Assembly: GCA_028386065.3 (NCBI GenBank)
Contig: JAKUCV010000237.1
Location: 86,881-150,880 of the forward strand
Source: Turnera subulata
Taxonomy: Eukaryota; Streptophyta; Magnoliopsida; Malpighiales; Passifloraceae
Direction: 5' to 3'
Length of the DNA: 64,000 nt
Shown: positions 1,361 to 27,743 of the stretch, one piece after another
How positions within the stretch are numbered: position 1 is the first letter of the stretch
How the letters are laid out: every line of letters starts with the position of its first letter
The notes under the pieces: model-generated
What the model saw: the letters and a program-made list of their open reading frames with translations, nothing else
Database searches by the model: none
What the model was told of the DNA's origin: nothing
Program-made: the position numbers and the translations under genes

Positions 1361-1422
1361 TGTGAACACCCAAATTTGACCCACGAACATTTTACTAAAA
1401 ATAGATTCCAAACATACTCAAA

Positions 1423-1452
1423 CTTGAGGTTAATGAGATGCTTGATTTTGAG
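1423..1452 (+). promoter_or_regulatory. LTR hairpin with TGAGATG loop (copy 1)
   Basis: CTTGAGGTTAA (1423-1433) and TTGATTTTGAG (1442-1452) can pair if G-U pairs are allowed, around an 8-nt loop TGAGATGC. The 3' LTR equivalent is at 16055-16085 with loop TAAGATGAT. The loop matches that of the large 3' hairpin array of this element. Confidence 0.5.
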
Positions 1453-1524
1453 TTAAGGCAAGATAAGAATTTAATTTAGTAGAATTAATGTATTTTGATA
1501 ATGTAAACATTTGTGCACTTAAAC

Positions 1525-1555
1525 CTTAGGATTAATGAGATGATTTAATCTTAAG
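1525..1555 (+). promoter_or_regulatory. LTR hairpin with TGAGATGAT loop (copy 2)
   Basis: CTTAGGATTAA (1525-1535) pairs with TTAATCTTAAG (1545-1555) over 11 positions with one G-U pair. The loop is TGAGATGAT, identical to the loop of the 3' array. The 3' LTR has the same structure at 16158-16188, where one A-U pair has become G-U. Confidence 0.65.
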
Positions 1556-2046
1556 ATAAAACATATAATAAGGTTTATTTACATTAGAATACATTCCATT
1601 TTGTTGCTTGGGCTTTTTTAGTTCTTTTTTACCCAATTATATTGAGATGATTTATTTTTGGGTTAGAAATGGGTTTAATGGTCCAAGTTAATGAATTCTC
1701 CAGAGTTTGTCCAGCCCATTAACACATTTCTTGCAGGCTAATTTTAGCTCTAATTTCCGTGGGAAATCAGAGTTAAATTATCATTTAAGTAGTTTTTTGT
1801 GCTTTTGATATGATTTTGCTTAAAATGGGTATAAATGTGTAATCAATCAAATCTTGGGATGATTTAAGGGAGTGGGGATCAAGTAACTGAGTGATTCTGG
1901 GTTAATTAGGGATTAATTATGCAGTAGGATCAAATTAGAGCTGAATTAGGGGATTGGGAGTAAAAAAAAAGGAAAGAACGAGTGACATGCGGGGTGACCG
2001 GCGGTCCTCTCGTGATGACCGCCAGCACCTGGCAGTCCTTCTCACA

Positions 2047-2068
2047 TGACCGCCAACAGCGGCGGTCA
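2047..2068 (+). promoter_or_regulatory. TGACCGCC/GGCGGTCA palindrome in U3
   Basis: Perfect 8-bp arms TGACCGCC and GGCGGTCA are separated by AACAGC, about 130 bp upstream of the first TATA box. More GACCGCC-type half sites lie just upstream (about 1995-2035). Related palindromes occur upstream of the antisense gene (14007-14026) and in the related LTR at 24988-25009. It is a candidate protein-binding site or RNA/DNA hairpin. Confidence 0.6.
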
Positions 2069-2197
2069 TAGGTGCCCAGAACCCCCCCGACTTTTCTCCG
2101 ATTTTGTTTCTAATTCTATCCTACGCGGTTTTGGACCAGATTTTCGGGCATAATCTTCACCATTAAGCAGGTCCACGCCCCTAGGCTCCTAGAGCAC

Positions 2198-2205
2198 TAT
2201 AAATA
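2198..2205 (+). promoter_or_regulatory. LTR TATA box 1
   Basis: TATAAATA follows the conserved context TAGAGCAC. The 3' LTR has the same box at 16830-16837. The LTR transcript probably starts about 30 bp downstream. Confidence 0.7.
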
Positions 2206-2273
2206 GGACTCCTAACACACATTTCAAAGGACACACAATCTTTCTCACACACACACCCATAAGCCTTGAGTGC

Positions 2274-2945
2274 TTAGAAATGGGTTTAATGGTCCAAGTT
2301 AATGAATTCTCTAGAGTTTGTCCAGCCCATTAACACATTTCTTGCAGGCTAATTTTAGCTTTGATTTTCGTGCAAAATCAAAGTTAAATTATCATTTAAG
2401 TAGATTTTTGTGTTTTTTGTATGATTTTGCTTAAAATGGATATAAATGTGTAATCAATCAAATCTTGGAATGATTTAAGGGAGTGGGGATCAAGTAATTG
2501 AGTAATTCTGGGTTAATTAGGGGTTAATTATGCGGTTGGATCAAATTAGAGCTGAATTAGGGGATTTGGAGTTAAAAAAATGGAAAGAACAAGTGACAGG
2601 CGGGGTGACCGACGGTCCTCTCGCGACGACTGCCAGCACGTGGCGGTCATCCTCACATGACCGCCGACAGTGGCGGTCATAGGTGCCCAGAACCCCCCGA
2701 TTTTCTCCGATTTTGTTTCTAATTTGATCCTACACGGTTTTGGACCAGATTTTCGGGTATAATGTTCAGCATTAAGCAGGTCCACGCCCCTAGGCTCCCT
2801 AGAGCACTATAAATATAATCTTCAGCATTAAGCAGGTCCATGCCCCTAGGCTCTCCAGAGCACTATAAATTGGACTCCTAACACACATTTCAAAGGACAT
2901 ACAATCTTTCTCACACATACACCCATAAGCCTTAAGTGCTTGGAG
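2274..2945 (+). repeat. Internal tandem duplication of the U3/promoter
   Basis: This is the second copy of a 611-bp unit whose first copy is 1663-2273. It repeats the region from AGAAATGGGTTTAATGG through the GACCGCC tract and TATA box to the ATAAGCCTT-AGTGCTT segment. It differs by scattered substitutions and by a further 56-bp duplication at about 2771-2870. The 3' LTR has only one unit. Confidence 0.85.
2808..2871 (+). promoter_or_regulatory. LTR TATA boxes 2 and 3
   Basis: TATAAATA at 2808-2815 and TATAAATT at 2864-2871 are 56 bp apart. They lie in the two copies of a short tandem duplication containing GCATTAAGCAGGTCCA and CCCCTAGGCT. Together with 2198 they give this LTR three promoter cores. 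Confidence 0.65.
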
Positions 2946-3609
2946 AAACTCTACCTCTCCAATTCTATAGATACATTCTTAGGCAGAAACTCTGGAGGAA
3001 TTTCGTAGGAAGCATCAAAAGTAGTCCAGCAAGGAAGAGTGAAGAATAGGATCAACCATTGAGCTTAGAAGTGGGAAGAAGGTGGGTGTAGAACTCAACC
3101 CATTGCAAGAAGCTAGAGGAGGGATATCGGAGGTAACACTAAACCTTCTTTTGATTGATCTTTGTTGATTATACGCTGATGCTTTTGATGATATAAGTGG
3201 CTGATTCGTGCCATGCTTAGAACTACGTAGCTTTGACCCCGGTCACTCGGGTACATAGGTAGTCTTGGTTTTACAACTGGATGCAAGCCAATTCTTCTTC
3301 TTCTCCCCTATTCTTTTATTTTCCACACTTGCAAACTTGCACCAGTCACACTTACATTTTACAATTGCACATAGTCTCGACCCAACAAGGATGGTTGCCT
3401 AACATCTTCCCATCCGTGACGAACCCCCGATCCCATGACTTTGGTTCGCCATGACCATGTAGCCTAAAGGAGTCACATGAATGTTTTTCCCAAGTTTTGT
3501 CCTTAATAAAATTTTGGTGGCGACTGCAATGTCATGGGATTGACCCGAGGAAGAAGGTGAAAGGATTAGGTGAATAGGCCCAAGTGATTTTGGGTCGGGT
3601 ATTCACAGT

Positions 3610-3626
3610 TGGTGACTCCACTAAGG
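3610..3626 (+). other. Primer-binding site of the Ogre-like element
   Basis: TGGTGACTCCACTAAGG begins two bases after the end of the 5' LTR. It resembles the TGGCGACTCC-type site of Ogre elements, which is reported as complementary to a tRNA-Arg 3' end, with C-to-T and G-to-A differences. It fixes the element's + orientation. The next 470 bp are an untranslated leader. Confidence 0.7.
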
Positions 3627-4098
3627 AAGTAGTGGGTTCAAAACACTTTGTGCAATTGTAAAAATCTTGTGTGCCTTTTACTTGTCATCATAAGTGCCTT
3701 GCATTCATGTTGGTTGATGTGAAGCCTTTACCGTAAGAGGGCAAGGGAATCCAAGTCCACCACAATGCTTTCTTTAAGCGATGGCGGCTTTAGTGAACCT
3801 GTTTCTCGATGCTTAGCAATGATGGGGATTAATTGGCCTTGGACCTCACGTGATACCCATTATCACATGTGAGTAGGTCAACCTATTCTTTAGCAGCAAT
3901 TTTTGGCCCCCAACCAGCTGCATACCCTGAGCATCTCATGCATTATGAATCACTAAGTGGTACGTGCATTTGGGTGTATATTATTGTGGATTTAAGTAAT
4001 TGTAAATAGAGTGCCTCCTTCATGAACTTTACCCTAAAAAAGAGAGAGAGTTTTCCCTTTGGGTACCTAGAGTTTTCACACCTATCTCCCCTCAATAG

Positions 4099-5609
4099 GA
4101 GTGCAAGAAGAGTGAAGATAACACTACCAAGGCCAAATCCCTGTTGCAAGATCCAACTGTGAGGGATGCATTGATGATGCTCAAGCATAGAACTGCTTCC
4201 CGTGGGACTAATGGGGGACAGACTTCAAGACAAAATGGTGATGGGAAAACGACACAAGACGGTGGTTTGATGATTCGAAGGCCCAAAGAAGATGAAGAAA
4301 GGCTCAGGAGAGTAAAGGAGCTGCTGGAAACCATGAAGAGGAAGGAGGATGACTGGAATCTAGATCGCTTATCTTTATTCCCTAAATCTCGGTTACCTGA
4401 GAAGTTCAAGATGCCTGAAATCGAGAAATTCAATGGAATGGGAAGCCCTACAACTCATTTGAAGATCTATGTGAGGATGCTGCAGCCTATGGGGGTAGGA
4501 CCAGAACTGATGGTTCAATTGTTTCAAAGGACTCTATCGGGGGCAGCCTTGAAGTGGTTCATGACCTTGGACGAGAGTAGGATCAGTAAGTGGGATGAAT
4601 TCTGCAAGGAGTTTGTGAACCAGTATGGTTATAACACCGAGGTGGATGTGACTAAGAGGGATCTCGAGACAACCAAGCAAAAGCCCTAGGAGACTTTCTC
4701 TGCTTATATCTCGAGATGGCACAGTACGACATCGTTAATGGTCTGCAGACCAATCGAGGAAGACCAGATACAGATGGTCATCAAGAATCTATAGCCGACA
4801 TATTATGATCGTATGGTTGGCAATTACTATGCTAACTTCAAAGCCCTTGTTAGGGCAGGGAAGCAGCTAGAAGATGCCATCAATTCGGGAAAGATCAAGG
4901 TGCCCATGGGCGCATCCACATTCAAAGGAAGCCCAAATCTGACCCTGGGAAAGAAGTTGGCTNCAGTACGACATCGTTAATGGTCTGCAGACCAATCGAG
5001 GAAGACCAGATACAGATGGTCATCAAGAATCTATAGCCGACATATTATGATCGTATGGTTGGCAATTACTATGCTAACTTCAAAGCCCTTGTTAGGGCAG
5101 GGAAGCAGCTAGAAGATGCCATCAATTCGGGAAAGATCAAGGTGCCCATGGGCGCATCCACATTCAAAGGAAGCCCAAATCTGACCCTGGGAAAGAAGTT
5201 GGCTGGGGTAAATTATGTGACCGCTCAAGCTGGACCTAAACCTAGAAAGTTTACCCCTTTGCCTATGTCTCTAGGGAGGATGTTCAAGAAATGTGTAGAG
5301 GGAGGCCTACTACGATCTCTAGAGCCTAAGTCTGACTCACTCGTTAGAGGAGACCCAAGCAGATATTGTGAGTTCCACCAGATGACGGGGCATACCACTA
5401 ATGAGTTCCTTCAACTCTGCCAGAGGATTCAAGATTTGGTGGAACAAAAGGAGATCATATTGCCTAGACAGAATGGAACCAAAGAAGTCAATCTTGTGGA
5501 TAGGATGGGTGAGGAAGACTGTTTTATGCTCAGTACTGGTCAAGGAAAAGAGGCAAGTGGATTTGCAAGAATTATCACCCAAGACACCACGCGAGCGGAC
5601 AAGAACTAG
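4099..5609 (+). pseudogene. gag of the Ogre-like element
   Basis: The frame opens after a stop at 4096 and has no good ATG before about 4174. It shows the gypsy Gag core: a KMPEIEKFNG segment, then aromatic/hydrophobic stretches such as GAALKWF and WDEFCKEFVNQY, the Tat-lineage segment YYDRMVGNYYANF, and a knuckle-like CEFHQMTGHTTNEFLQL in place of a clean CCHC. In-frame TAG codons occur at 4687, at 4792 (repeated at 5034) and at 5607, where Gln codons would be one C-to-T change away. The reading frame appears to jump at the N at 4963, but removing one copy of the 241-bp duplicate restores a single continuous frame. Gag packages element RNA in cytoplasmic particles; this copy cannot make it. 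Confidence 0.85.
4722..5204. other. Duplicate flanking an N: probable assembly overlap
   Basis: The bases 4722-4962 and 4964-5204 appear identical over 241 bp and are separated by a single N at 4963. The copies are offset by 242 bp, which breaks the gag frame. Collapsing them gives one uninterrupted frame apart from the shared TAG. A contig-end overlap joined with a placeholder N explains this better than a biological duplication. Confidence 0.85.
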
Positions 5610-6738
5610 GAGTGGCACGGATCAAGCATTATCTTCAAGACAGAGGAAGAAGAAGCTGGAATGGATCCTTTCATAACCTTTGAGTCTGAGAGTGAATCCG
5701 AAATAGATTGTGAGCCTGATGATGTAACTAAGGAATTAGATAATGATTCCTTTGATTTTAGTTTTTCTTGTTCCAAAACCTTAGAAAACGATGATGTCTT
5801 CATATCCCAGAGTAATGAAATGAGACAGTCTTTTGCTTACTTGGATGTTTTCTATGGTGGTGCTTATTGCATGCATAATATGTGTGAATGTAATGAGACG
5901 AATGAACTCCCAGATTCTATCGAAATCAATCTGGGCATTGATATTGATCCAAAGATCACAAGGATTGGCACAACTCTCGAAAGTTCGATCCAAGACGACC
6001 TTGCAGTTTTGATCAAAGAGTATGTAGATGTGTTTACATGGTCCTATGAGGATATGCCAGGTATTGATCCAGCCATCGCCCAGCATCGGATTCCGCTCTT
6101 CCCAGGTGCCAAGCCAGTGAAGTAGAAAACCCGTCGTCTCCAACCCTAGTGGGCCTTGAAAGTAAAAGAGGAAGTTGAGAAGTAGATTCGGGCCGGATTT
6201 TTAGAAGTGATCGAGTATCCTAAATGGTTGGCCAACATAGTACCAGTCCCAAAGAAGGATGGGAAAGTAAGAATGTGTGTGGATTACCGAGACTTAAACA
6301 AGGCTTGCCCCAAGGATGAGTTCCCCATTACCGCACATTGATCTTTTGGTGGATGCAACGACTGGACATGCATTATTATCCTTTACGGATGGATTCTCAG
6401 GATACAACCAAGTGAAAATGGCACCAGAAGATAAGCACAAAACGTCCTTCCGAACAGAAAGGGGGACATTTTGTTACAAGGTCATGCCTTTTGGATTAAT
6501 CAATGCCGGAGCAACATACCAAAGGATGGCCACCACACTCTTACACGACATGATGCACAAAGAAGTCGAGGTCTATCTCAATGACATGATTGTGAAGTCA
6601 GAGACTCGGGAATCCCATGTGGCCAACCTAAGAAAGTTCTTTGAGAGATGTCGGGAATTCGGCATGAGAATCAACCCTCAGAAGTGTGTCTTTGGTGTTC
6701 AAGCAAGAAAGTTGTTGGGCTTCATGGTAAGCGAATGA
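5610..6738 (+). pseudogene. pol: linker and reverse transcriptase
   Basis: The gag frame continues through an acidic linker (about 5661-5960) into RT. Recognisable RT pieces are PVPKKDGKVRMCVDYRDLN (6246-6302), FTDGFSGYNQVKMAPEDKHK (6381-6440), TSFRTERGTFCYKVMPFGL (6442-6498), and the catalytic box, here YLNDMIVKS (about 6574-6600). The box is normally YVDD, and the changed Asp would abolish polymerisation. One extra base near 6329 shifts the frame. TAG codons at 6123, 6147 and 6183 and TGA at 6736 interrupt it. I see no D-S/T-G protease motif between gag and RT, so that domain seems to be lost. Confidence 0.88.
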
Positions 6739-7800
6739 GGTATAGAAGTGGACCCTTCCAAGATCAAAGCTATTCAAGAAATGCCAACCCCGAAGAGTGA
6801 GAGAGAAGTCTGAAGCTTCCTCGGGCGAATACAATATGTCAGCCGTTTTATTGCTCAACTCTCTAGTATTTGTACACCCATTCACCGCTTACTTAAGAAG
6901 GGAGCTCCAGTCAAATGGGATGACAGGTGCCAAGACGCCTTTGAGTAAATCAAGAAGTATTTGTCTAACCCCCCAGTACTCCAACCTTCCAGGCCAGGAA
7001 AATCCTTGTTGTTATACTTAACTGTCACAGAAGAAGCTATGGGTGCAATGCTAGCCCAATATCTGCCTGAGTCTCGTACTAAGACCGCCATCTACTACTT
7101 GAGCAAGAAGTTCAATGGGTATGAATTGAATTACAACATGGTGGAAAAGACGTGTGTGGCTTTAACATGGGCCTGTCAAAAGCTCCGACACTATTTCATT
7201 TCCATTGAGGTCTTGCTCATTTCCCAAATGGATCCTATCAAATACTTAATGGAGAGGCCAGTGCCAAGTAGCTGCACAAGCAGATGGGTGGCAATCCTGT
7301 CACAATTCAATGTCCGGTTTATTTCACAAAAGGCCATCAAAGGAGGTGCCATAGTTGACTTCCTTGATTCTCAGCTGGTAGGGAATGATGAGAGATTCGA
7401 ACCACAGTTTCTAGACGAAGAAATAATGAACCTGGATACACCAACCTGGGAGATGCATTTTGATGGGGAGGCCAACGCAAGTGGTTTTGGGATAGGAGTA
7501 ATTCTCATGTCTCCTGATGGAGTGACCTATCCAATCTCCTGTAAATTAGAATTCAAGGCGACCAATAACGTAGCTGAATATGAAGCATGCACCATTGGCT
7601 TGGAGATAGCACTCAATATGGGAATCATGCAGATGAGAGTATTCGGGGATTCGGCTCTGGTAATTTTCCAAGCAAAGGAAAAATAGAAGATCAAAGAAGA
7701 GAAGCTGGCGCCCTACCACGATGACTTGTAGACCCTAGCCTCCAAGTTTGAAGTAATTGACTTCTAGTACGTGCCAAGGAAAGACAATTAGTTCGCTAAC
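6739..7800 (+). pseudogene. pol: RNase H and second RNase H-like domain
   Basis: After the RT thumb come the gypsy RNase H signatures TVTEEAMGAMLAQ (about 7021-7060) and AIYYLSKKFNGYELNY. A second RNase H-like domain begins at about 7447 with MHFDGEANASGFGIGVIL, then NNVAEYEACTIGLEIAL and RVFGDSALVIFQ. These contain the D, E and D of the RNase H fold. A second RNase H after the first is a known Tat-lineage trait. Stops interrupt the frame at 6811 (TGA), 6946 (TAA), 7684 and 7729 (TAG) and further TAG codons up to 7800. The frame is +1 relative to the 5' part of pol because of the insertion near 6329. Confidence 0.85.
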
Positions 7801-8512
7801 ACATTAGCCATACTCTCTTCAATGATGGGGATGCCAAACAATGCCATCATCTTGCCATTGATAGTCCGAAGGAAAGAAAAGCCATCCTTCTGCCAGAAAG
7901 AGGGGGTGAGTGAACCCTGGTTTCAAAGTTACCTGAATGAGTTGAATCCCAACAAAACTTCCATCATGGCCCTTACCACTACGAAGGTAGATCAACCATT
8001 ACATGTCCAGACTGAACTTGACAGTGACTCAGAGCGTTGGTATGAAGACATATTGGAATATCTAAGGGAAGGGACATTCCCTGAGGGAACAACAACGGCT
8101 GAGGAAAAGAGGACTTTAAGAAGATTAGTTGGAGGGTATGTCATATGCGCCGGGAAACTTTACAAAGGCACGCTACGGGGGTCCACTTGTTATGCGTAGG
8201 TACAAAGGAAGCAGAACAGATAATGAAGGGAGTACATGAAGGAGATGAGGGCCCATATATGGAAGAGGACATGTTAGCTCAAAAAATATTGCGGTTGGGG
8301 GACTTTTGGTCAACAATAAAGACTGACTGTGCAAAATTCGTGAAGCGTTGTCATACATGTCAAGTCCACGGGAGGTTGCAGCAAAGGCCTCCACTACCAT
8401 TAACGGCCACATCTTCACTTTGGCCATTCTCAGCATGGGGCATTGATGTTATTGGAAAAATAACCTCGAAGGCTACAAATGGACACGAGTACATACTGGT
8501 GGCCATCGACTA
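7801..8512 (+). pseudogene. pol: integrase N-terminal half
   Basis: A linker frame (7822-8199) is followed, after a one-base shift near 8165, by the integrase HHCC zinc-binding region. The CHTC pair is intact at about 8349-8360. The second His appears replaced by Tyr in EGPYMEED. The catalytic core begins WPFSAWGIDVIGKI, which supplies the first Asp of the D-D-E triad. The coding sequence stops at ...AIDY, where the solo LTR at 8513 is inserted. The GACTA before it is half of that insertion's duplication, and the frame resumes exactly at 11600. Confidence 0.87.
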
Positions 8513-11500
8513 TGTAACGCCCCGAATTTTCATAATTTGATTTTTCGGAATTTTTGAAAATTTTATTCCAATTTTACCCTTGGGGTATTCTCGAGTTTTA
8601 GTCGAGGAAATTGATCACTATGCCTTGGAAATGTCAATTTTAAGTGGGTGTCGTTCATGGTTCGGGTTCCGTTGGAAACGGATCCGAGAACGGGGTGAAA
8701 CACGAAGATTAACGGAGGGTACTATGAAACTACGTCGTTTTGGGACTGTTTTAAAAAAAAAAACAGAAACGCGTTGACCAGGGGGGTTGACCGCGCCTAG
8801 TGGAACGACATGTCGTCCACTAGGAACAGCCAACCCTAGCCGGCCACTCCCTTCTTCCTTTCTTTTTCTTTTCTTCTTCTTTCTTATTTCTTTTTCTCTT
8901 CTTCTCCAAACCGTAGCCGCCTCCTCCTACCTTCCTTCTCCTTCTTCCTGTTCTCTCTCTCTTCTCTTCCCTTCCTCCTCCCTCTCGTTTTTCCTCTCTT
9001 CTTCTTCCCTCTTCTCTTCTTTTTCTCTCTTCCTCTCTCTTGCTTTCGTCTTCGACTACACACCAACCTCTAAGCCCCACGCCGTCGACTTCTTTCTCCC
9101 CTCTTCGTGAGCCGCCGCCGCCGTTCTCGTCGCAGCCGCCACCGCGGGTTGAGAGGAAGCCGAGACGAAGGACGAGCTTGGTGCAGGTCCGACGAGGATC
9201 ATCTCCGGTAAGCACCGCCGCCCCTAATATCCTTTTGGTTCGCGTTTTCTTTTGAGTTCTTTTGGGTTGATGGATTTTGTTGTTGATGTGTTGATTGTGG
9301 TTTGGTTTGGTGTTGTTTCGGGCTCGGCGGTGGGTTGTGGGTGTGCCTGCGTGGCTGTTGTCGGGGCCGGTCTTTGCTCGGAATGGTGGTGGCCTGTTGA
9401 CGGGTCGGCTCACAGGTGAGGCTCGGGATTTGCGCCGTTCGTCGGGTCCGGCAATCCACTAGGAGGTGTTCTCGGGTGCTGCTGTTGTTGTCGTGCTCAG
9501 ACCCGTCACTTGGCTTGGTTTCCGGTAAGGACCCAGAATTCCTCTTGGTTTTCTCTTCAATTCTTGGATCTGTTTCCGTAACGTAGCTCTTGTGGACGGT
9601 TGAATTTTGGATGTTTTGGTTTGGCAGAACTGTGGAGATAGATTGGTGGTGTAGTGGCAGTTTTGGGTGTTTTTCCGGCGAGTTCACCGGAATCCGGCGA
9701 AGGCTCGAGAATTTTTCGGCGAGGCTCGGGAATATTCTGGCGAGGGCTCGGGTCGTTATTTCGGCATTCCACGGTATATATGGTGTATTTTTAATCTATA
9801 TCCGGCATGTACTTATAATTCGGAATTGGGTTATGTATTTAATTGTAATTAGTGGAAACCGAGGGTGTGAGTAGTATAAGGCCGGTAATTACCGACACGG
9901 GTAGAACCTTAGGCCGGGAATCTTTGGACATCGAATTAACCTTGGACTTAAGTAACAGGCTCTGAGCCCAATCCTATGCTGGGCTTAATAAGGACTTAAG
10001 GAAGTGGGCTTTAGGCCGAAAATTGTAATTGGGCTTAGATTGGACTTTAGGCCGGGAATTCATAAAGGACATAATGAGTGGGCCATAGGCTCGGGAACTA
10101 CTCTTGGACTTAGTTGGGCTTAAGCCCGGTGAACCTTAGGTCCCGATACTCGGAGTTTTGGTGAGAGGACTTTAAGTCGGGTTTAGACCCGGGAATTTCA
10201 TAGATGGCTAATTAGGGACGGGTTTAACCCAGTTGAGCATTATAGTTACATGCTTGCACGTTTTTGTTGTTATTGTTTGTAATTTGTTGTGTGTGCCAGT
10301 ATTCAGGCACGGGTAATACCTCGGGAGCTGGAGGATCTGTTTTGGGAAAAGCTCCACAGGACAATCGTCGTTGAGGTGACTTTATATGTCTTTTTATGTT
10401 TGTTTGCATGAGCTCGTTGGATTGGTTTGTTTGAGTTGCATGCTTGTTGCTAACATGCTGTAATCTGTATTGTGTGCCTAAGTGTATTATTTGCTTAAGA
10501 GCTGGATGTTGGATTTGTTATGGATTATAACATGTGTGATTTTGGGTGTTTGTGTGATGTGTTGTGGGTCGGAGACCCGGTGATCTGTTTAAGCTGTTTT
10601 ATCACACAACCCTGTTAAATCACAATCTCTTGGCACATGAACTCATAATTTGTGAATCAGAATAATGTACAATAGAAGTTAGGCTACTGTGTGCTGATGA
10701 CCGGTTGTATCGAGCAAGAAGTGATACCCCTCGGGTTTGCTTGCGGAATGGCAATTGTTATGCGGATTTGCATATGGGTCTGTTATGACCGGTTCTACCT
10801 CCCTCCTTCTACCTCCCCCTTTCTACCTCCCTCTTTCTCTCTGTCTCTCTCTCTCTATATGGTTATGTTGGGCTTCGTGCCTGGTTGTATTTGGGCTTAT
10901 GCCTGGTTGTCTCATGAGACGGGACCGAGCTCGACGCACACAGTAGGGGGCCCTGAATAATAAAGTATAATAAGAAAACTTAACACACAACAGATGGAGA
11001 ATAATGAACAGTTTGCTTGATTGTGTTGGCATGTTAGTACTGATTGTTGTATGTTTGCATGCTTGCTTTGTTACTCTTCTTTCCTTTTGAACTTGATCTG
11101 CACACTCTCATAATTAGACTTATATTGTTCACTGAGTAGGCGACTCACATAATCGCCAACGTTGTTTTTCAGACTTTAGATAGCGTGCAGTCACTTTCCA
11201 TCCTTCCAGAGTACGGACGTGGTTATCTCAGCAGGTAGCTGTGCTTGATCTCCCGGTTGGATCCATAGAGTCGGCATGCATGTCGTTTTGTTTCTCTTAT
11301 TTCTACTCCGTTTGTTTCTTCCGCTGCATTGAATTTTTATTGAGATGTCTCTATTGATTTTGGATTATATTATCGGCGGATTGTCGGGATTTACTATTGA
11401 GGATGTATCGGCAGGATGCCGGGTTTGATTTGAGGCTTGCTAAGCCAGTTTGACTATGTTTGTTGTGACATCTTTTTCTATTAAGAATTTTGGATATTGT

Positions 11501-11594
11501 TGATTTTGGATTTCGTGTCCCGGGTTTCAGGGGTATTTTGGTAATTTCCTTTATTTAAGTATTTTATTTATAAAATTGGGACACGGGTGTTTCA
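8513..11594. mobile_element. 3.1-kb solo LTR inserted in integrase
   Basis: It starts TGTAACGCCCCG, ends CGGGTGTTTCA, and is flanked by the perfect 5-bp duplication GACTA (8508-8512 and 11595-11599). No gag or pol motif occurs inside, so this is a solo LTR left after LTR-LTR recombination. The TGTAACGCCCCG start and large size recall Del/Tekay-type chromoviruses, which is an inference. Inside are a long pyrimidine tract (about 8840-9060), a GC-rich stretch with CCG triplets (about 9080-9200), a degenerate repeat based on TTAGGCCGGGAAT (about 9880-10210) and a CT-rich tract (10790-10860). Removing it rejoins the integrase codons for D-Y-F-T-K-W. Confidence 0.92.
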
Positions 11595-11599
11595 GACTA

Positions 11600-12354
11600 C
11601 TTCACCAAATGGGTGGAGGCTGAGTCATATGCCATTCTCACATCTAAGAAGGTGGCTAAATTCATCCGCAATAACATTATTTATCGCTATGGCGTCCCAC
11701 ATGAGTTAATATCGGATAATGGCTCACACTTCAAAGCTTATATTGAAAGGTTATGTCGGGAATTCGGGGTCAAGCACCACAAATCTTCACCATATCGGCC
11801 CCAAGCCAATGGAGCGGTAGAAGCCGCCAATAAGAACATGAAGGCCATCCTAGAATAGATGATATCTACACACTGAGAATAGGCAGAAAAATTGCTATTG
11901 GCTCTATGGGGATACCGGACCTCCATTAGATCCTCCACGGGCGCAACCCCATACTCCTTAGTGTATGGCATGGAAGCCGTGCTGCCTGTAGAACTCGAAG
12001 TATAGTCATTAAGGGTGGCCCGGGAGAGCAAGCACCCTGAAACGGAATAGGTGCAAGAAAAGCTTGATCAATTGGCATTACTGGATGAAAAGAGACTGTG
12101 TAGGGATACTAAAGAAGAATAGCTCGGGATTTTAACAAAAGAGTCAAGGAAAAGGACTAAAGGAAGGTGATTTGGTGCTAAAAGAAGTAAGACAACCAGT
12201 GCATGACCCTAGGGGCAAATTCAAGGCTAAATGGATTGGGCCTTACATCATCAAGGAGATTCTACCAAAAGGGGCAACAAGAGTCAAAGATTTGGATGGG
12301 AACGAGTTTCGAGAGCTAGTCAATCTAGATCAGTTAAAGAAATATTATTTGTAA
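11600..12354 (+). pseudogene. pol: integrase C-terminal half
   Basis: This continues the integrase core after the solo LTR. LISDNGSHF (about 11708-11734) gives the second Asp and GAVEAANKNMKAIL (about 11812-11850) the Glu of D-D-E. Then follow LLALWGYRTSIRSSTGATPY (about 11893-11952) and VYGMEAVLPVELEV. Stops at about 11856, 11874, 11880, 12003 and 12048 would revert by single transitions to Trp, Arg or Gln codons. A frameshift near 12160 leads into the C-terminal tail GKFKAKWIGPYIIKEI (about 12208-12255), ending at the TAA of 12352-12354. Confidence 0.87.
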
Positions 12355-12571
12355 TCTGAACTACGTAGACCTGATTCCTTGCGCTCGAAAGAAAGAAAAG
12401 AAAAGTAATGATAAGCCAAGAATACGTAGGAAGCCCAACTTGGGGTCCGGTCACTTTATTAATAAAAAACGAAAGGTTGACAAGAAAGGAAATGGGAGTT
12501 CATTCACTCGTTTATTTTGCATGCATTATACATGTCATGAATACTCATCTAAGCAAAATATCTAAGTACGC

Positions 12572-13928
12572 CTAAGCGTCTTCCTCATAATCACTAGGGG
12601 CCTCAGGTTCGTGGCGGACATTCGATCCCAAGAGTCTATCTCTGTACCCAGAGAGGATTCGTTCAACCTCGCCCACACCCCTCTTTAACCACCTTTGATA
12701 ATTCATGAAAGAAGAGGGATTGGCGATGTTACAAATCTTGATCTTTGTGGGAAGGCTTCAGTACCCTTGCAAAAGCTTTATGGTGCGCCCATCCATTAAC
12801 CTGTCGAGAGGCGAGCGAAGAAGGGGAGGAATTATCTGATCATGTCCAAATTACCTGACTACCCTGGATGGATAGTAAAAGGTAGTCCAAAGAATCCCTA
12901 GGAGCACTACAACCTTTTGACCAGCTGTGTGGACGATCACCTCTCGTATCCCGAACCAAGGACAGTGCAATATGACTTGATGTTTCTCTAATTGTTTCAT
13001 GAAAGTCACCCATCCATTGACAGAAGAAGGAGTAAAGGAAGAGACCCGTTCATGGTATTCCCCCGAAGTATACAAGCCAGATTTTGGAGGAGTGATCAAT
13101 TTGAGATGGTCGCACAGCCACATCTACAAAGAAACAGATTCATAAGAAAAGAGGGGAAGAAGATGAATTCTAAAGATGCAAGAAAGTTAAAGGCGATACC
13201 TGGAGAAGCAGTGGGGAACCTGTCAAGGGCCTATCAGGATAAGCCGTCAGAGTATCCACACAAGTAAGAGTTTCACCTAGAACAGTAGGCACCATGCTAT
13301 GACCACTGAACAACTTGGCCACTAGTGTACCCACGCTTAAAGAGCAAGTACCAGAACGACTAGTCAGCAAAAATTCACACACCATCGCCAGAGCTAAAGC
13401 ATGATCATGCCCATCTTTCCAGGATGCGTCGCGCTCCATGTACTCATATAGCACAATATCTACAGAATATTGATCGACTAGTGCTGACAAGTTCACGTGC
13501 ATATCCCTGCCTAGCAAATATTCCATCTCCTCATTAGTAACAGACAAGAAAACACTGACCTCAGACTTAGTCACTGCGGCAGGAGAAACCATGGCAATAT
13601 CATCTTCCACCTGGATTTCAAGGAGTGCACAAAACTCATCCACAAATGGGCAGAGTTCCACCGTAGAAGGTCCAAAACGAAACACACGACAATCATAATC
13701 CCAAAACATAGCTGCAGCACAGATTAGGTCCTCATTAATCTTTACTGTGGCCAGGTTGAATGAGGCAGAAAGCCCCGGTACCTTGAAATCAAGGTGACGC
13801 GCTTGGGGAACATCCTCCATCCACTGGAGCACTTTGGCACGAAAATCTCTACTCATGGCCACCTCAAATGTGTTTGGAAGATATTCTAACAAGTTATAGA
13901 TGTCTCTTGATACCGAAGGTCTTATTTA
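12572..13928 (-). pseudogene. Antisense two-exon DUF7745/plant-mobile-domain ORF
   Basis: This gene lies on the strand opposite to gag-pol, between integrase and the 3' LTR. Exon 1 runs from about 13925 (no ATG seen; the frame is open from an ATA after a stop at 13926-13928) to 13200. Exon 2 runs from 13123 to a TAG at 12572-12574. The proposed 76-bp intron has CAG|GT and TTTGTAG|A borders and keeps the frame. Exon 1 contains VLQWMEDVP, FWDYDCRVFRFG, and ELCPFVDEFCALLEI. Exon 2 contains WLCDHL, CPWFGIREV and TFYYPSRVVR. These resemble retrotransposon-borne relatives of the plant mobile domain (DUF7745). The molecular function of these products is unknown. An in-frame TAA just after VVR and a TGA near 12770 probably inactivate this copy; the former is a C-to-T change from CAA. 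Confidence 0.75.
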
Positions 13929-14095
13929 TATCTTTCCTAGGTCAGTGGAATTCGTGGAAACCCTAAAGCTCAGGCCTGAAAACCAAAAAGAAAATTCCGG
14001 GGGCACGACCGCCACTACCGGCGGTCATCCATGCAAGACCGCTGCGCAGGTGGTCATTCTCCCCACATGACCGCCCGGTCGATCGGCACCGGCCC
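13922..14095 (-). promoter_or_regulatory. U3-like promoter of the antisense ORF
   Basis: Read on the minus strand, this region has repeated GACCGCC/GGCGGTC sites, including a perfect 7-bp palindrome at 14007-14026 (loop ACTACC). These are followed by a CCCCCGGAATTTTC segment and, about 75 bp further, a TATAAATA box (about 13923-13930). The plus-strand LTR has the same order: GACCGCC palindromes, CCCCCCCGACTTTTC, then TATAAATA at 2198. The similarity suggests that a U3-type promoter drives the antisense gene. Confidence 0.6.
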
Positions 14096-15160
14096 ATCCG
14101 GAAAATTCTAAAAAATTCAAAAAAAAATTGGTGAGAAGGAAAAAGGGTAGGAGAGTGAAAATAAAAAGAAAAGAGGAAAAAAGAGAAGGTTATATCCGTC
14201 TACTGAGACCAAACTATTCATTGAAAAAAGGGGCACCTGTTGACTTTTACTTGAATTTTCAGTAATAAATATTTTGTATGTCATGCGTGCATAATTGATC
14301 AGGCCTTAATGCATACAGCCCCCTTTTGATTCCCAGGGGCACGATAAGCCCATTCCTCATTTGATGTTAGGATAACCGATAAAACAGGGGCACACTGAAT
14401 CCTATCTCTCAAATCATGGCGAGATATTAGGGACATCACACCCCACTTCTGATTTGTATCTCTCAAGGGGCACGACACACCCCATTACCTTCAAACCCGA
14501 TTCATCGACATAAGAGGCATGGGGTCCAGACAATCCAACCAAGGGAGAATCTTGAGAGAACATCCAAAGGGGAGTGAACTCGGACATGAGGAATCCAGAT
14601 ATGAGAGAAAGCCCGAAGCCAAAGACCCGGTCCTTGCAAACCTTGAGATGAAGAAACCTGAGGGAACACTACGAGGGACCTAGCCCCCGCAAACCAAGAG
14701 ATGTTAGAGAAGCCAGAGAGGAGTCCAGACGTGAGGGAACCCAGTCAGAAGAGAGATGGGAAGGAAACCAGACATGAGCAACCTAAATGAGAGAAAACCA
14801 TGAGGGAGTCCAAATGCGAGGGAGTCCAGACAAAGATGAACCGTGAGTAGAACAAGGCAAACCAGAAGTGAAGGAGTCCAGACATGATGGAAACCAGCCA
14901 TGAGGGAGAAGACCGTGAGGGAGTCCAGACATGAGGGAAACCAGCCATGAGGGAGAAAACCATGAGGGAGTCCAGACATGAGGGATCCAGACATGAGGAA
15001 AACCAGTAAGCCAAGGGCCCAGCCCTTGCAAAACCAAGATGACCAGACCTTGAGACATACAAGTTAGAAGCCGGGAACCCAGTTCTCGCAATAAGGAAAC
15101 CAGACAAAAGCTGTGTACCCAATACCCGCAAAACCAAAGCCTAGGACCTGATTCTCGCAA
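14096..15160 (+). repeat. Repeat-rich 3' untranslated region of the Ogre-like element
   Basis: There is no sense-strand gene here. About 14330-14510 carries several GGGGCAC motifs. About 14570-15000 consists of degenerate tandem units built from GAGTCCAGACATGAGGGA and AACCAGCCATGAGGGAG. About 15000-15160 has CCGCAAAACCA-type units. Long variable 3' UTRs with tandem repeats are known in Tat/Ogre elements and can seed satellite DNA. Open frames on the minus strand across this tract are by-products of the repeat. Confidence 0.75.
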
Positions 15161-15165
15161 ACTCC

Positions 15166-15872
15166 GGGATGAGATGATTCCCAAAAACCATAGCTTGGGA
15201 TGAGATGATTCTCAAACAGAATCTAGCAGACAATGATGAGATGATTCCTTGTCAACAACCCCGATAGATGAGATGATTCTATCACCCCGGGATGAGATGA
15301 TTCCCGAAAACCTGGGATGAGATGATTCCCACAAGACCAAACAAAATCCAGTCGACAAAGAAGAGATAATTCTTTGTCAACAACCCGATAGATGAGATGA
15401 TTCTATCGCCCCGGGATGAGATAATTCCCGGAAACCATAACTTGGGATGAGATAATTCCCAAACAGAATCCAGCCGACAAGGATGAGATGATTCCTTTGT
15501 CAACAACCCGATAGATGAGAAGATTCTATCGCCCCGGGATGGGATGATTCCCAGAAACTATAGCTTGGGATGAGATGATTCCCAAACAGAATCCAGCCGA
15601 TAAGGATGAGATGATTCCTTGTCAACAACCCAATAGATGAGATAATTCTATCGTCCCGGGATGAGATGATTCCCAGAAACCATAGTTTGGGAAAAGATGA
15701 TTCCCAAATATAATCCAGCCGACAAAGACGAGATGATTCTTTTTCAACGACCCGATAGATGAGATGATTCTATCGCCCTAGGATGAGATGATTCCCGGAA
15801 ACCTGGGATGAGATTATTCCTAGAAGCCGAGGGCCAGTTCCTTAAAACTTCAGGATAAGATGATTCCTGAAG
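15166..15872 (+). repeat. Array of 23 hairpins with constant loop TGAGATGAT
   Basis: About 23 units each have a 9-nt loop TGAGATGAT (or a one- to three-base variant) flanked by complementary arms ending in GA and beginning with TC. Arm pairs differ between units: GACAAGGA/TCCTTGTC, GACAAAGA/TCTTTGTC, CGATAGA/TCTATCG, CCGGGA/TCCCGG, TTGGGA/TCCCAA, TTTGGGA/TCCCAAA and CTTCAGGA/TCCTGAAG. Loops start at 15170, 15201, 15237, 15269, 15293, 15318, 15362, 15393, 15417, 15448, 15484, 15516, 15540, 15571, 15607, 15638, 15662, 15693, 15729, 15760, 15784, 15809 and 15856. Most deviations keep pairing or give G-U. A higher-order period of four hairpins is visible. Confidence 0.9.
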
Positions 15873-15992
15873 AGGAGCATGGGATGCTCCAAAACTTGGC
15901 ACACACACCGCACATTATCATTCAAATTTGGTTGATTCATTTCTTACGTTGTTTCGTCCTTAGTCCCTAAGGACTCATCAACGAGGGACATC

Positions 15993-17608
15993 TGTGAACA
16001 CCCAAATTTGACCCATGAACATTTTACTAAAAGTAAAATCTAAACATGCTCAAACTTGAGGTTAATAAGATGATTTGATTTTGAGTTAAGGCATGATAAG
16101 AATTTAATTTAGTAGAATTAATGTATTTTGATAATCTAAACCTTTTTGCACTTAAACCTTAGGATTAATGAGATGATTTAATCTTAGGATAAAACATATA
16201 ATAAGGTTTATTTACATTAAAATACATTCCATTTCGTTGCTTGGGCTTTTTTAGTTCTTTTTTATCCAATTATATTGAGATGATTTATTTTTGGGTTAGA
16301 AATGGGTTTAATGGTCCAAGTTAATAAATTCTCCAGAGTTTGTCCAGCCCATTAACACATTTCTTGCAGGCTAATTTTAGCTCTGATTTCCGTGGAAAAT
16401 CAGAGTTAAATTATCATTTAAGTAGTTTTTTGTGTTTTTTATATGATTTTGCTTAAAATGGGTATAAATGTGTAATCAATCAAATCTTGGGATGATTTAA
16501 GGGAGTGGGGATCAAGTAACTGAGTGATTCTGGGTTAATTAGGGATTAATTATGCAGTAGGATCAAATTAGAGCTGAATTAGGGGATTGGGAGTAAAAAA
16601 AAAGGAAAGAATGAGTGACATGCGGGGTGATCGGCGGTCCTCTCGTGATGACCGCCAGCACCTGGCAGTCCTTCTCACATGCCCGCCGACAGCGGCGGTC
16701 ATAGGTGCCCAGAACCCCCCGACTTTTCTCCGATTTTGTTTCTAATTCTATCCTACGCGGTTTTGGACCAGATTTTCGGGCATAATCTTCACCATTAAGC
16801 AGGTCCACGCCCCTAGGCTCCTAGAGCACTATAAATAGGACTCCTAACACACATTTCAAAGGACACACAATCTTTCTCACACACACACCCATAAGCCTTG
16901 AGTGCTTGGAGAAACTCTACCTCTCCAAGTCTATAGATATATTCTTAGGAAGAAACTCTACCTCTCCAAGTCTATAGATACATTCTTAGGCAGAAACTCT
17001 GTAGAAATTTTGTAGGAAGCATCAACAGTAGCAAGGAAGAGTCAAGAAGAGGATCAATCATTGAGCTTAGAAGTGGAAAGAAGGTGGGTGTAGAACTCAA
17101 CCCATTGCAAGGAGCTAGAGGAGGGCTACCAGAGGTAACACTAAACCTTCTTTTGATTCATCTTTGTTGATTATATGCTGTTGCTTTTGATGATGTAAGT
17201 GGCCGATTCGTGCCATGTTTAGAACTACGTGGCTTTGACCCCGGTCACTCGAGTACGTAGGTAGTCTCGGTTTTACAATGGGATGCAAGGCAAATCTTCT
17301 TCTTCTCCCCTATTCTTTGATTTTCCACACTTGCACACTTGCACCAGGCACACTTGCATTTTGCAATTGCACATAGTCTCGACCCAACACGGATGGGTGC
17401 CTAACACCTTCCCATCTGTGACGAACCACTGATCTCATGACTTTGGTTTGCCATGACCATGTAGCCTAAGGAGTTACATGAAGGTTTTTCCCAAGTTTTG
17501 TCCCTAATAAAATTTGGGTGGCGACTCCAATGTCATGGGATTGACCCGAGGAAGAAGGTGAAAGGATTAGGTGAATAGGCCCAAGTGATTTTGGGTTGGG
17601 TATTCACA
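15993..17608 (+). repeat. 3' LTR of the Ogre-like element
   Basis: It begins TGTGAACACCC and ends TATTCACA. It carries one promoter unit (TATA box at 16830-16837), unlike the triplicated 5' LTR, and a short duplication of AAACTCTACCTCTCCAAG at about 16915-16970. The same LTR hairpins are present at 16055-16085 and 16158-16188. The sequence just upstream (15980-15992, AACGAGGGACATC) is a weak polypurine tract. Confidence 0.93.
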
Positions 17609-18590
17609 ATAAGGAGGATTGAGCAATTAGCGTAGTTGGACAATAACAATGGTATTTATTGGTTGATGCATTTCTCTATGAACGTTGTTTGGGAAATGGG
17701 GTGGGTGGAACTTTCACTACAACTGTATACAACAACATTGTGAAAACACTGCAAAACACTCTTCGGACAAGCCATGAGATAAAATTAAAGTGCAAAATCG
17801 AATGAAATATTTGATGCAAAGGTTTAATCCTCGCTATGACATTTCCAAACATGGCACCAGTGGTTTTGCTTGGAATTCTAAAACTAAAATATTTTATGCC
17901 AAACCTGAAATTTGGAAAGTGCTGTTTGAGGTAAGATTTTTTTAATCTATGATTTAATATTTTTGTATTAAAAATTTAGAAATTCCAAGCTTTCAGAAAT
18001 TTCCTGTAATAGAGGAATGGATGAATAAGCCTATTCTGCATTATAACAAAATGGTGGAACTTTATGCAGGAGATAGAGCACCTGGTGACCAATCTAGTAA
18101 CGTTAGAGAAATTAAACAAAAAGTTAGATCATAAACTGTTGATCCAAATAGTATTGATGACATGATAGCCCAAAATGAGGTGACATTGCAAGAGTTTTAA
18201 TGTTCCTACTGCTGCTGATGATCTTCAATCTCCTAGAACAAGACATGAATCACTAGCTCAAAATACCACTGTGAGAGGGAAGACAAAAAATGGTAAAAGA
18301 AGTGGATGCTGATAGTGTAAATTAAAATTTTGAACAAAGGGCTTGATAATATCGTAGAAGAAATTGTAACATCATCAATAGAGATGGTTAGAGGAAGCCA
18401 AAACGCACCTTTGGGTAAGAATGAAGTATGGCAACTTTTGGTGGAATTGGAAATTGAATCTTCTAGGGTACCAACCATTTATCTTTATCTGATCCGCAAT
18501 CTCGGTATACTGAGGGCAATGTTTGGATGTCCAGTTGAGAATCGAAAAGAATTGTTGATGAAGATGGTCAAAGATGAGTAATTTCATCAT
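17609..18590 (+). pseudogene. Harbinger Myb/SANT-like ORF, 3' part
   Basis: This continues the ORF interrupted at 1360; 17609-17613 is the duplicated ATAAG. The translated pieces resemble the minus-strand Myb ORF of the second copy, including YERCLGNGVGGTF-like and HGTSGFAWNSKTKIF-like stretches. A GTAAG-like donor sits near 17933 and a second exon runs from about 17995 (EEWMNKPILHYNKMVELYAG). The C-terminal part extends to a TAA at 18579-18581. Stops and shifts make it non-functional. The family binds subterminal transposon DNA and helps the DDE transposase. Confidence 0.7.
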
Positions 18591-19454: not shown

Positions 19455-19826
19455 TCTTACCTCAATCAGCACTTTCCAAACTTCAGGTTCGGCATGAAAC
19501 ATCTTAGTGTTAGAATTCCAAGAAAAATCACTGGTGCCATGTTTGAAAATGTCACAGCATGGTTTAAACCTTTGCTTCGAATATTTCATTTGATTTTTCA
19601 CTTTACTTTTATCTAACGGCTTGTCCGGAAAGTGTTCCTACAACGTTTTCACAATGTTGTCGTATGTAGTTGTAGTGAAAGTTCCACCTACTCTATTTCC
19701 CAAACGATGTTCATAGAGAAACGCATCAACCAGTAAATCATCCATTATTGTTTTCCAGCTACACTGATTGTCCAATCCTCGTTGTGATGCATTTTTTACT
19801 CCATCCAATCTTTTTCTTTTCGTCAT
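19455..19826 (-). pseudogene. Second Harbinger copy: Myb/SANT-like ORF
   Basis: The ATG at 19826 opens MTKRKRLDGVKNASQRG, followed by CSWKTIMDDLLVDAFLYEH and GNRVGGTFTTTTYDNIV. This pattern (tryptophan, then a helix-rich segment) fits the Myb/SANT-like domain of PIF/Harbinger accessory proteins. A stop near 19638 is followed by more coding-like sequence with HGTSDFSWN and EPEVWKVL up to a possible splice donor near 19455. It lies downstream of the transposase on the same strand. Confidence 0.7.
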
Positions 19827-26108: not shown

Positions 26109-27743
26109 TGATAGCTTCCCGCAAGTATACGGGGTTATTGTAGTACCAAGGTCGTCTCACAGGGATCTTTGTTAAGTACTATTCAACTAAGCAACTTATG
26201 ATTATCTAGAGAAATAAATAATGTTAAGGACTGATGATTGAATTGGAAAATGAAAGCGAATAGAAACGATTAAAATTCAATAATATTAAATATCTAGGAC
26301 TTCGAAGAATTCCTTGCCAACATTTCCATGCAATTAAGCTGCACATAAGCAAACCATGTCCTGTCACCACATAGTTAGCCTATACAAAATCTATGAATTA
26401 AATCTAAAAATAAACTCTTTTAAAAGAAACAGTAAATCTAAGCTAGAACGATAACCTACTCTCGTAGTGCCGTAAAATCCCTTCCTAATTTACGTCCACC
26501 ATCCATTTTCCAGTGACGAGGTAAATTCAGAGCATTAAGAAATTTACCTACTAAATCTCCAATAAAAATCACGCCTCCCTCGAGGTCGGTAGCCCGGTTA
26601 ATGTTTTTCTATAGGCAAACGACGCTGTCACTTAACATTTCCCTATTATGGATTTATGCTAAACGATGGGCAGTCAATTAACATAGTGAAGTTTCATTAC
26701 CGGATTAAAAGAGAATAAATTCAGAAATAAAACTTTAACTAAATAAGCATGGAAACATTAACAAGTTCATCCCCTAATCCTAGACAAGAATTCTAGCAAG
26801 ACATAGCTTCAAAGAAAATAATAATTACTTGGAAATAATACATCATAATTAATTCAAGGGAAAACTTACAAGAAATTTGGAGCCAACCTTGAACCAAAAG
26901 AGACAAATCTCTAAGCTAAGAAACTTCCAAAAGCTACAGCCAATTAGGAATTACAAAGTAACAAAAGAAAGTACAAATCCTAAGCTACTTGTGTTTTTTG
27001 TCGATTTGAGTTGGATGTAGAACTTGATTCCTTCAGCTTTGATGTGGGGCCTTTATATAGTGAAGGGAGAGGAGTGTTGTGTGGCTGGAAATATAATCAA
27101 AGGAGACAAAAGAGGAGCTTGTGTGGCTCCCCCTTTTTGCGCCAAAAGAGTGGAAGTGGAGGCCGACTTCATGCGCCAAAATCAGCCAACAAATGAGCCA
27201 CCTTCCCACCATTTTTCCTCATGCAACGTGAGTGGACCTGATTTCATGCATGTGTGGCCACTTGTGTTTGGACTCATTCTTCCCTGGATGAGGCCTGTAA
27301 AAGCACATGAAATTGGATTTGATGGATGAGCTTCTCACGTGAACCATTCCTCCAAATTGGGCTTCTACATCCTTCTTCTTTTCTTCTTGACTATAGGCTT
27401 TGGGCCACTAGAGATTGGTCCACCATGATTTTTGGCTGCACCATGGAGGATTTTTGGCCCAAATTTTGGAGGATTTCACCTTGTCTTGCCACGTGTCCAC
27501 AGGATGCTCATGTTGAAACAGTTCACATGGGCAGCCTATGCTGGAACTGCACATCTTGTCCGAAAAATCCAATTTTTATTTCTAAATTCTATAAAAAAAG
27601 TTAAAACTTGAAGAAAAAGGAAATATAAAGATAAAAGGGAGAAAAACACTAAAAACAAAATGGATTAATAAAATAAATAAATATTTTGCAAGCTAAAAAC
27701 GTTGAAAGAACCCGTGAAATGAGTGCAAAATGCGTACTCATCA
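26109..27743 (-). repeat. 3' LTR of the Athila-like element
   Basis: 1635 bp, nearly identical to 32151-33782. On the minus strand the adjacent polypurine tract AAGTTTGGGGTGGTG (27744-27758) marks it as the 3' LTR. The TTTATATAG at about 27051 in plus view is not the sense-strand promoter. Confidence 0.92.

Follow-up and report, generated by a model that had tools for sequence, protein, structure and literature searches.

A Ty3/gypsy LTR retrotransposon in the genome of Turnera subulata carries an array of 23 small hairpins, immediately 5' of its polypurine tract and 3' LTR, in which a near-constant loop of nine nucleotides is held on stems of different sequence. This loop, or a near copy of it, returns in the U3 of both LTRs, where three other stems carry it at intervals of about 100 nt. 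Comparison of genomic copies revealed that the U3 hairpins occupy fixed places, that the stems differ between copies by matched changes, and that pairing in the U3 is biased toward the sense RNA. The array was found in a 64,000-nt stretch of one contig (the window, hereafter) and its relatives were sought in the source assembly, which comprises 518,689,335 bases in 7,125 contigs.

The host element (Table 1) is flanked by a target duplication, ATAAG, at 1356-1360 and 17609-17613, and an empty site related to its insertion site lies near 19782. Its reading frames are broken; Pfam matches were nevertheless obtained to gag, RVT_1, RT_RNaseH, and a second RNase H, RVT_3, with Integrase_H2C2 below threshold. 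Two traits of the Tat/Ogre lineage were seen. RT_RNaseH and RVT_3 lie together on one 245-aa frame, and we take an RNase H additional to that of RT-RNase H to be the mark of the Tat lineage, which includes Ogre and Retand. In addition, pol is separated from the 3' LTR by a long region that holds tandem repeats (14855-15006 and 15164-15820) and an antisense frame beside the array (13173-13925, with a sub-threshold match to DUF7745). Ogre proper has a spliced intron and an extra ORF ahead of gag. An earlier note on this DNA had placed the array in the 3' UTR of an Ogre-like element, and the LTRs, Pfam domains and Tat/Ogre affiliation show this placement to be right.

The named proteins closest to the RNase H region (6949-7683) come from plants that we take to be eudicots, save for one partial record labelled Modestobacter lapidis; this record is the best protein match and is probably plant DNA in a bacterial assembly. 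No relatives were confirmed by protein in viral_contigs. The 5' LTR is composite: its U3 shares 97% identity with the U3 of the 3' LTR, and a second, partial LTR follows (2274-3607; 88-93%). Across the whole window, the sole Rfam match at gathering threshold was to snoR71, a plant C/D snoRNA (31468-31574, just over threshold), located between LTR-like repeats at 26109-27743 and 32151-33782; the hairpin array belongs to no Rfam family.

Table 1. Coordinates in the window of the host element, its hairpins, and the features around the polypurine tract.
Feature	Position	Strand	Details
Host element, Ty3/gypsy LTR retrotransposon, Tat/Ogre lineage	1361-17608	+	Self-comparison, ends rechecked, Pfam
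5' LTR	1361-3607		Self-comparison
+74 hairpin, 5' LTR	1422-1453	+	Loop lacks one base; model score weak (E 0.22)
+177 hairpin, 5' LTR	1524-1556	+	
Third U3 hairpin, 5' LTR	1631-1663	+	
Array unit 1	15164-15286	+	Hairpin loops A 15170, B 15201, C 15237, D 15269
Array unit 2	15287-15410	+	Hairpin loops A 15293, F 15318, C 15362, D 15393
Array unit 3	15411-15533	+	A 15417, B 15448, C (one-base bulge) 15484, D 15516
Array unit 4	15534-15655	+	Hairpin loops A 15540, B 15571, C 15607, D 15638
Array unit 5	15656-15777	+	Hairpin loops A 15662, B 15693, C 15729, D 15760
Array end	15778-15825	+	Hairpins A 15784, F 15809
Hairpin E	15848-15872	+	Arms CTTCAGGA / TCCTGAAG, loop TAAGATGAT
Hairpin K	15874-15890	+	GGAGCAT-GGG-ATGCTCC
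Stem beside polypurine tract	15947-15983	+	CGTTG..GTCCTTAG / CTAAGGAC..CAACG
Polypurine tract region ahead of 3' LTR	15980-15992	+	AACGAGGGACATC
3' LTR	15993-17608		Self-comparison
U3 hairpin +74, 3' LTR	16054-16086	+	12 paired positions, 5 G-U, loop TAAGATGAT
U3 hairpin +177, 3' LTR	16157-16189	+	
U3 hairpin +284, 3' LTR	16264-16296	+	Stem imperfect

The array had been reported as 23 units at 15166-15872, and both the count and the coordinates were reproduced. The loop, which had been called invariant, equals TGAGATGAT in only 13 of the 23 hairpins and departs from it by one mismatch in eight and by two in two. The arms had been described as different yet complementary, which stood for the 21 hairpins with at least four contiguous pairs adjoining the loop and did not for those at 15237 (two pairs) and 15784 (three). 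Tandem Repeats Finder resolved the array as a repeat with a 122-bp unit, 5.2 copies, and 84% matches, a period that had been missed, as had the U3 hairpins; the feature also extends to thousands of places elsewhere in the genome. Each full unit holds four hairpin types, i.e., A (CCGGGA), B (TTGGGA), C (GACAAGGA), and D (CGATAGA), and there are two extra types, E (15856) and F (15318, 15809), the latter taking the place of B in the second and last units and resembling B with a short deletion. The arms differ between types and are mostly constant within a type, so the contrast that had been drawn with an ordinary satellite fails within types.

Other repeats were observed in the same region. Seven upstream hairpin-like repeats (14620-14636, 14673-14689, 15012-15028, 15072-15088, 15112-15128, 15141-15157, and 15828-15844) have a loop near CCCAG and differing stems; with the register set by eye, their own arms form 35 pairs versus 30.7 when permuted (88 of 5,040). 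The 3' UTR has five GGGGCAC motifs resembling the polypurine tract (14000, 14230, 14336, 14387, and 14467), which span about 470 nt, and multiple copies of the tract are known from Sireviruses (PMC2829016, excerpt). GACCGCC and GGCGGTC alternate as inverted repeats in the 3' UTR (14006-14085) and in the U3 (16629-16705).

Within the window, the association of loop and stem exceeded chance. Allowing up to two loop mismatches and requiring a stem of at least five pairs, 18 array hairpins were counted on the plus strand and none on the minus strand; the largest count among 1,000 permutations of the loop letters was 14, none reaching 18. When the right arms were permuted among types A to E (positions 3-8), the mean was 13.8 pairs versus 24 for the true pairing, which only the true one of the 120 arrangements attained. 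With nine types, including those of the U3, 43 pairs were formed versus 21.4 permuted, a value reached by 4 of 362,880 arrangements. An alignment of 22 of the 23 array hairpins (the bulged copy at 15484 was omitted) with the three U3 hairpins of the 3' LTR had 81.3% of cells paired versus 53.7% after shuffling and a covariation score of 0.644 versus 0.178 (0 of 500 shuffles), with an unexceptional number of pairs showing two-sided change (121 of 500). The proposal that a constant loop on covarying stems denotes a structure read through its loop is thus upheld by the pairing of types A to E and by the covariation score.

Compensation inside the array itself is weak, and the statement that changes there are often compensatory was an exaggeration. 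Leaving aside the bulged C copy at 15484, 17 stem pairs have changed, of which two are two-sided, four G-U, eight A-C, and three other, such that pairing was lost in 11; both two-sided cases are a single G-C to A-T change found in two C copies. The arms of a hairpin pair hardly better with each other than with same-type arms of another copy (4.43 versus 4.30 of 6 pairs). Conservation of hairpin columns was not significantly higher than that of spacers in the array (p = 0.15), and a cruder fixed-offset count gave 0.105 for loop, 0.109 for stem, and 0.203 for flank.

A covariance model built from the hairpins yielded 23 matches with E < 1e-3 in the 64 kb, all of which lie on the plus strand inside the host element: 18 in the array and five in the U3s (1528, 1635, 16058, 16161, and 16268). 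The five remaining array hairpins overlap listed matches or are absent from the list, and the next match, outside the host element, had an E of 0.004. The weakest members score 23-24 bits, which does not surpass the top scores from bacterial and viral loci (253 kb, most of them fetched by the loop), namely 23.7 (L001, fetched by a hairpin pattern) and 22.3 (L035). Among these loci (L001-L035, all except L001 fetched by a two-loop pattern), exact loops have stems of at least four pairs in 5 of 102 cases and of at least six in none; the two-loop matches comprised 28 prokaryotic and six viral stretches, none with long stems. The exact loop occurs nowhere in the window outside the host element and nowhere in the other 86,880 bases of the contig.

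RNA folding, which had been proposed as a check, agreed with a structured region in the sense strand. The segment 15140-15992 gave z -4.4 in sense and -2.1 in antisense (20 shuffles each). For 150-nt windows (40 shuffles each), sense z fell to -6.5 both in the array and around the polypurine tract and to -6.3 where U3 begins, versus values down to -4.7 in sense and -5.5 in antisense elsewhere in the element.

The arrangement is widespread in the genome. A 13-nt core, GATGAGATGATTC, has 8,654 exact occurrences in the source assembly (4,382 forward and 4,272 reverse), whereas its reversed control has nine (seven forward, two reverse). Twenty-two regions fetched around listed copies of the core, i.e., selected by core sequence, were read. 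Twenty of these and the window together contain 216 loops that are exact or have a single mismatch. The distinct arm pairs number 206, in which stem positions 3-7 form 681 Watson-Crick pairs with their own partners versus 306 when swapped (z 23); mismatches other than A-C fell to 0.30 of their swapped frequency, G-U to 0.85, and A-C to 0.81. In a search for any loop repeated on perfect stems of at least six pairs, run over 196 kb that includes the loop-selected regions of this genome, TGAGATGAT ranked first, with 13 distinct stems in 14 stretches. Chance as the origin of the array hairpins was ruled out by the arm-permutation, loop-permutation, and genomic arm-swap tests.

The LTR start, TGTGAACA or nearly so, was recognised in 18 of the 22 regions and in the window (where L082 and L086 have two, the second was used). 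Across these 19 copies, loop hairpins fall at +70 to +76 in 18, at +169 to +180 in 14, and at +269 to +285 in 13; seven of the 18 copies carry the search core itself at the first place, which is to that extent not independent of the selection. The third hairpin has mismatches adjoining the loop in most copies. Ahead of the LTR, the number of exact loops in 17 copies ranges from one (L068 and L070) to 19 (L076), some of the hairpins of L076 lying about 1 kb before the LTR junction. Copy L067 has the array and a U3 devoid of the loop hairpin; a 10-bp hairpin with another loop lies at +76 (reverse-complement 1189-1200).

Paired changes were also found in other hairpins of the element. Hairpin K reads GGAACAT-GGA-ATGTTCC in L070, a paired change, and its stem is 7-8 bp long in 7 of 17 copies. 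Among 15 copies, eight have C-G and six U-A at one pair of the stem next to the polypurine tract. The tract AACGAGGGGCATC is exact in 8 of the 17 copies compared upstream, and 15980-15992 presumably represents the functional polypurine tract. A further U3 hairpin with a loop around GTG (16381-16405, 1748-1772, and 2359-2383) shows a paired change, C-G to T-A, between U3 copies. In the leader, AGCATCTCA (3930-3938) is complementary to eight of the nine loop letters and to all nine of TGAGATGCT at 1434 in the 5' LTR; this candidate kissing partner could be a chance match.

Homologous hairpins from different copies were aligned place by place, with significance from shuffle tests that ignore the relatedness of the rows. 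At +74 (17 rows: 16 of 18 copies, L087 and L082 being repeats of L085 and L069, plus L080, whose LTR start was not recognised), 89.2% of cells are paired, with 31 cells of two-sided change versus 11.9 shuffled (0 of 500), distributed over 8 of 12 pairs (14 of 500 shuffles as high). At +177 (13 rows: 12 of 14 copies, without the L085 repeats L086 and L087, plus L080), such cells numbered 12 versus 4.3 (0 of 500), on four pairs, a number not clearly above shuffles (130 of 500). The C hairpin of the 3' UTR (20 rows: 19 of 27 distinct C hairpins plus one further L084 row) had 23 versus 9.4 (0 of 500) on 7 of 11 pairs (15 of 500 as high); one of its pairs is A-U in nine and G-C in eight rows, and another G-C in ten and A-U in eight. 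Further pair types were not clearly above shuffles at +177 (136 of 500) or in C (204 of 500). The tract-side stem (15 of 17 copies; L077 has no stem and L087 is a near-repeat of L085) had eight two-sided cells versus 3.9 (3 of 500) and a score of 0.152 versus 0.114 (7 of 500), nearly equalled by a register slid by one (0.149). Slid registers, which keep relatedness, scored clearly lower at +74, +177, and C, a direction in which a structure chosen from the sequence tends anyway. Covariation across genomic copies, a check proposed in the earlier note, was therefore found at +74, +177, and C, where two-sided changes exceed all 500 shuffles, and no excess was found for D hairpins (23 distinct rows).

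Which nucleic acid forms these stems can be approached through the two imperfect pairs, since sense RNA tolerates G-U only. The +74 hairpin has 50 G-U and 4 A-C cells versus 56.1 and 14.6 after column shuffling, with A-C as low in 0 of 1,000 shuffles; at +177, the counts were 24 and 7 versus 28.1 and 10.5 (22 of 1,000). The 27 rows of C hairpins had 42 and 17 versus 55.4 and 31.4, a partial sense bias. Avoidance of A-C with G-U common favours pairing of the U3 hairpins as sense RNA over antisense RNA and DNA, a conclusion confined to the U3. Array-type hairpins (139 arm pairs, positions 3-6) have G-U and A-C equally depleted, both at 0.52 of swapped, and 28 arm pairs that are neither array-type nor U3 lean in the opposite direction (G-U 0.44, A-C 0.88). 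Because decay after insertion would make G-U and A-C alike, pair changes in the array may mostly reflect decay. The choice left between a structured RNA and a cruciform thus tips toward RNA in the U3, and the array shows no such difference.

Conservation of the loop was scored in 137 hairpins whose stems have five or more contiguous pairs. Letters 4, 5, and 8 are unchanged in 135 of them, letter 6 in 113, and letter 7 in 117, figures that flatter the loop, as the count was confined to loops with up to three mismatches. Two stacked G-A pairs beneath a triloop may be formed by the loop, read as U-GA-GAU-GA-U. One loop on many stems, present in several copies and at fixed places near the 3' end of the sense RNA, fits recognition by a protein with additive binding. 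The reading we prefer, tentatively and at a little under an even chance, is a multi-copy cis-acting RNA element with a protein-bound loop that acts on the genomic RNA. The 9-nt loop UGAGAUGAU would be the recognised part of each short hairpin, the stem mainly needing to pair. Full-length sense RNA would present the hairpins downstream of the final coding region, ahead of the polypurine tract, and a second time in the U3 of the 3' LTR. The loop would be bound by a host protein (an RNA-binding or export adaptor) or by the element's own Gag. If the loops act additively, hairpin number would be free to drift, from one to about twenty.

As to the step served, we infer the order RNA transport, then packaging, then a role at the polypurine tract. 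The likeliest role would be nuclear export of the unspliced genomic RNA by a transport element, like the CTE, RTE, and MTE of animal retroviruses and retrotransposons. CTE-type elements have their position near the 3' end. Transport is placed first because known transport elements of LTR elements act at such places and because of the Ogre intron. A functional intron is described for Medicago Ogre in a 2025 review, according to which RNA export of plant LTR retrotransposons has so far had no direct studies (PMC12786077, excerpt).

Packaging, in which Gag would bind the loops and many copies would nucleate particle assembly on the genomic RNA, seems to us rather unlikely. It has parallels in viral dispersed signals, stem-loops that differ among themselves but have a recognition motif in common (PMC6281560, excerpt), and in the Gag site of MMTV, a purine loop (PMC8096270, excerpt), and exact loops are present ahead of the LTR in the poorest copies (one in L068 and L070) as in the richest (19 in L076). 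However, the hairpins lie at the 3' end in the copies read, so that spliced RNA would carry them too, and a motif search of the three frames of 3601-9000, which are broken, found no zinc knuckle. An aid to reverse transcription, with hairpins in RNA or minus-strand single-stranded DNA helping plus-strand priming, strand transfer, or integrase binding, is improbable in our estimation. The junction of polypurine tract and 3' LTR is flanked by hairpins, L068 and L070 having a single exact loop upstream and a near-match at +74; the stem beside the tract has its paired change; and an inverted repeat occupies the same junction in Sireviruses and almost half of the other Ty1/copia elements studied (PMC2829016, excerpt). 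Some hairpins are, however, far from the priming site, as they precede the junction by about 1 kb (L076) or follow it by nearly 300 nt, and A-C avoidance without G-U avoidance in the U3 points to pairing of RNA rather than DNA.

The stems might also have arisen without any function, if hairpin-templated repair or template switching kept arms complementary and tandem duplication spread them. The equal frequencies of G-U and A-C in the array, expected if perfect arms decay, and hairpin columns not significantly more conserved than spacers (p = 0.15) accord with such an origin, which we nonetheless regard as quite improbable, as it leaves unexplained both the A-C avoidance in the U3 and the presence of one loop on different U3 and 3' UTR stems across divergent copies. 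Least of all do we expect regulation at the DNA level or by antisense, with a cruciform or an antisense transcript as the active form, a very improbable case. An antisense ORF does adjoin the array, and such ORFs are general in Retand elements (PMC11963269, excerpt), but antisense folding is the weaker, and antisense RNA would have A-C mismatches in place of the 50 G-U cells counted at +74.

As a putative protein-bound element acting on genomic RNA, the hairpins resemble several known systems in part. MPMV CTE, IAP RTE, MusD MTE, and MER11/SERV-K CTE are likewise cis-acting structured RNAs of retroviruses or LTR retrotransposons; the MPMV CTE has loops that bind NXF1 (PMC11379458, excerpt), and RTE and MTE are mentioned as RNA transport elements of mouse IAP and MusD (PMC12786077, excerpt). 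The present case differs in that up to about 20 small hairpins share one 9-nt apical loop in a plant element, for which export would be the presumed role. Packaging signals of RNA viruses also comprise many stem-loops with a common recognition motif, but are dispersed through the genome (PMC6281560, excerpt), whereas these putative Gag sites are clustered at the 3' end. Sirevirus LTRs contain high-copy symmetrical motifs as well as the inverted repeat at the tract junction; there, symmetrical arms with a CGG-CCG core are conserved (PMC2829016, excerpt), while in the present element it is the loop that is kept and the arms that differ. Sireviruses are Ty1/copia elements, and the present host is Ty3/gypsy. 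The 3' tandem repeats of Retand elements occupy the same place within the broader lineage and are family-specific, with no function known there (PMC11963269, excerpt). The text of that source contains neither "hairpin" nor "stem-loop", and its elements have LTRs of 315-1,194 bp versus 1,616 bp here; in our element, the repeat is built of hairpins and its motif appears again in the U3.

In the open-access literature, with subscription papers mostly outside its scope, arrays of hairpins with a constant loop were not found described for any plant LTR retrotransposon. At least one of five spellings of the loop occurs in 310 open-access papers, and among the 30 matches listed, none concerned this element, judging by titles and the starts of abstracts. 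We see an even chance that the hairpins constitute a modular recognition array of plant Tat/Ogre elements, with a 9-nt loop on interchangeable stems, amplified in tandem and found again in the U3, and thereby a transport or packaging signal of a type so far undescribed in plant LTR retrotransposons. Tandem arrays between pol and the 3' LTR are frequent in the lineage, with about half of potentially active Retand elements having one in a single survey, which describes neither their origin nor their function as known (PMC11963269, excerpt). If the proposal is true, a modular array of loops would explain what the 3' tandem arrays of the Tat/Ogre lineage are for, and, if such arrays seed satellites, some satellites may bear many protein-binding RNA hairpins.
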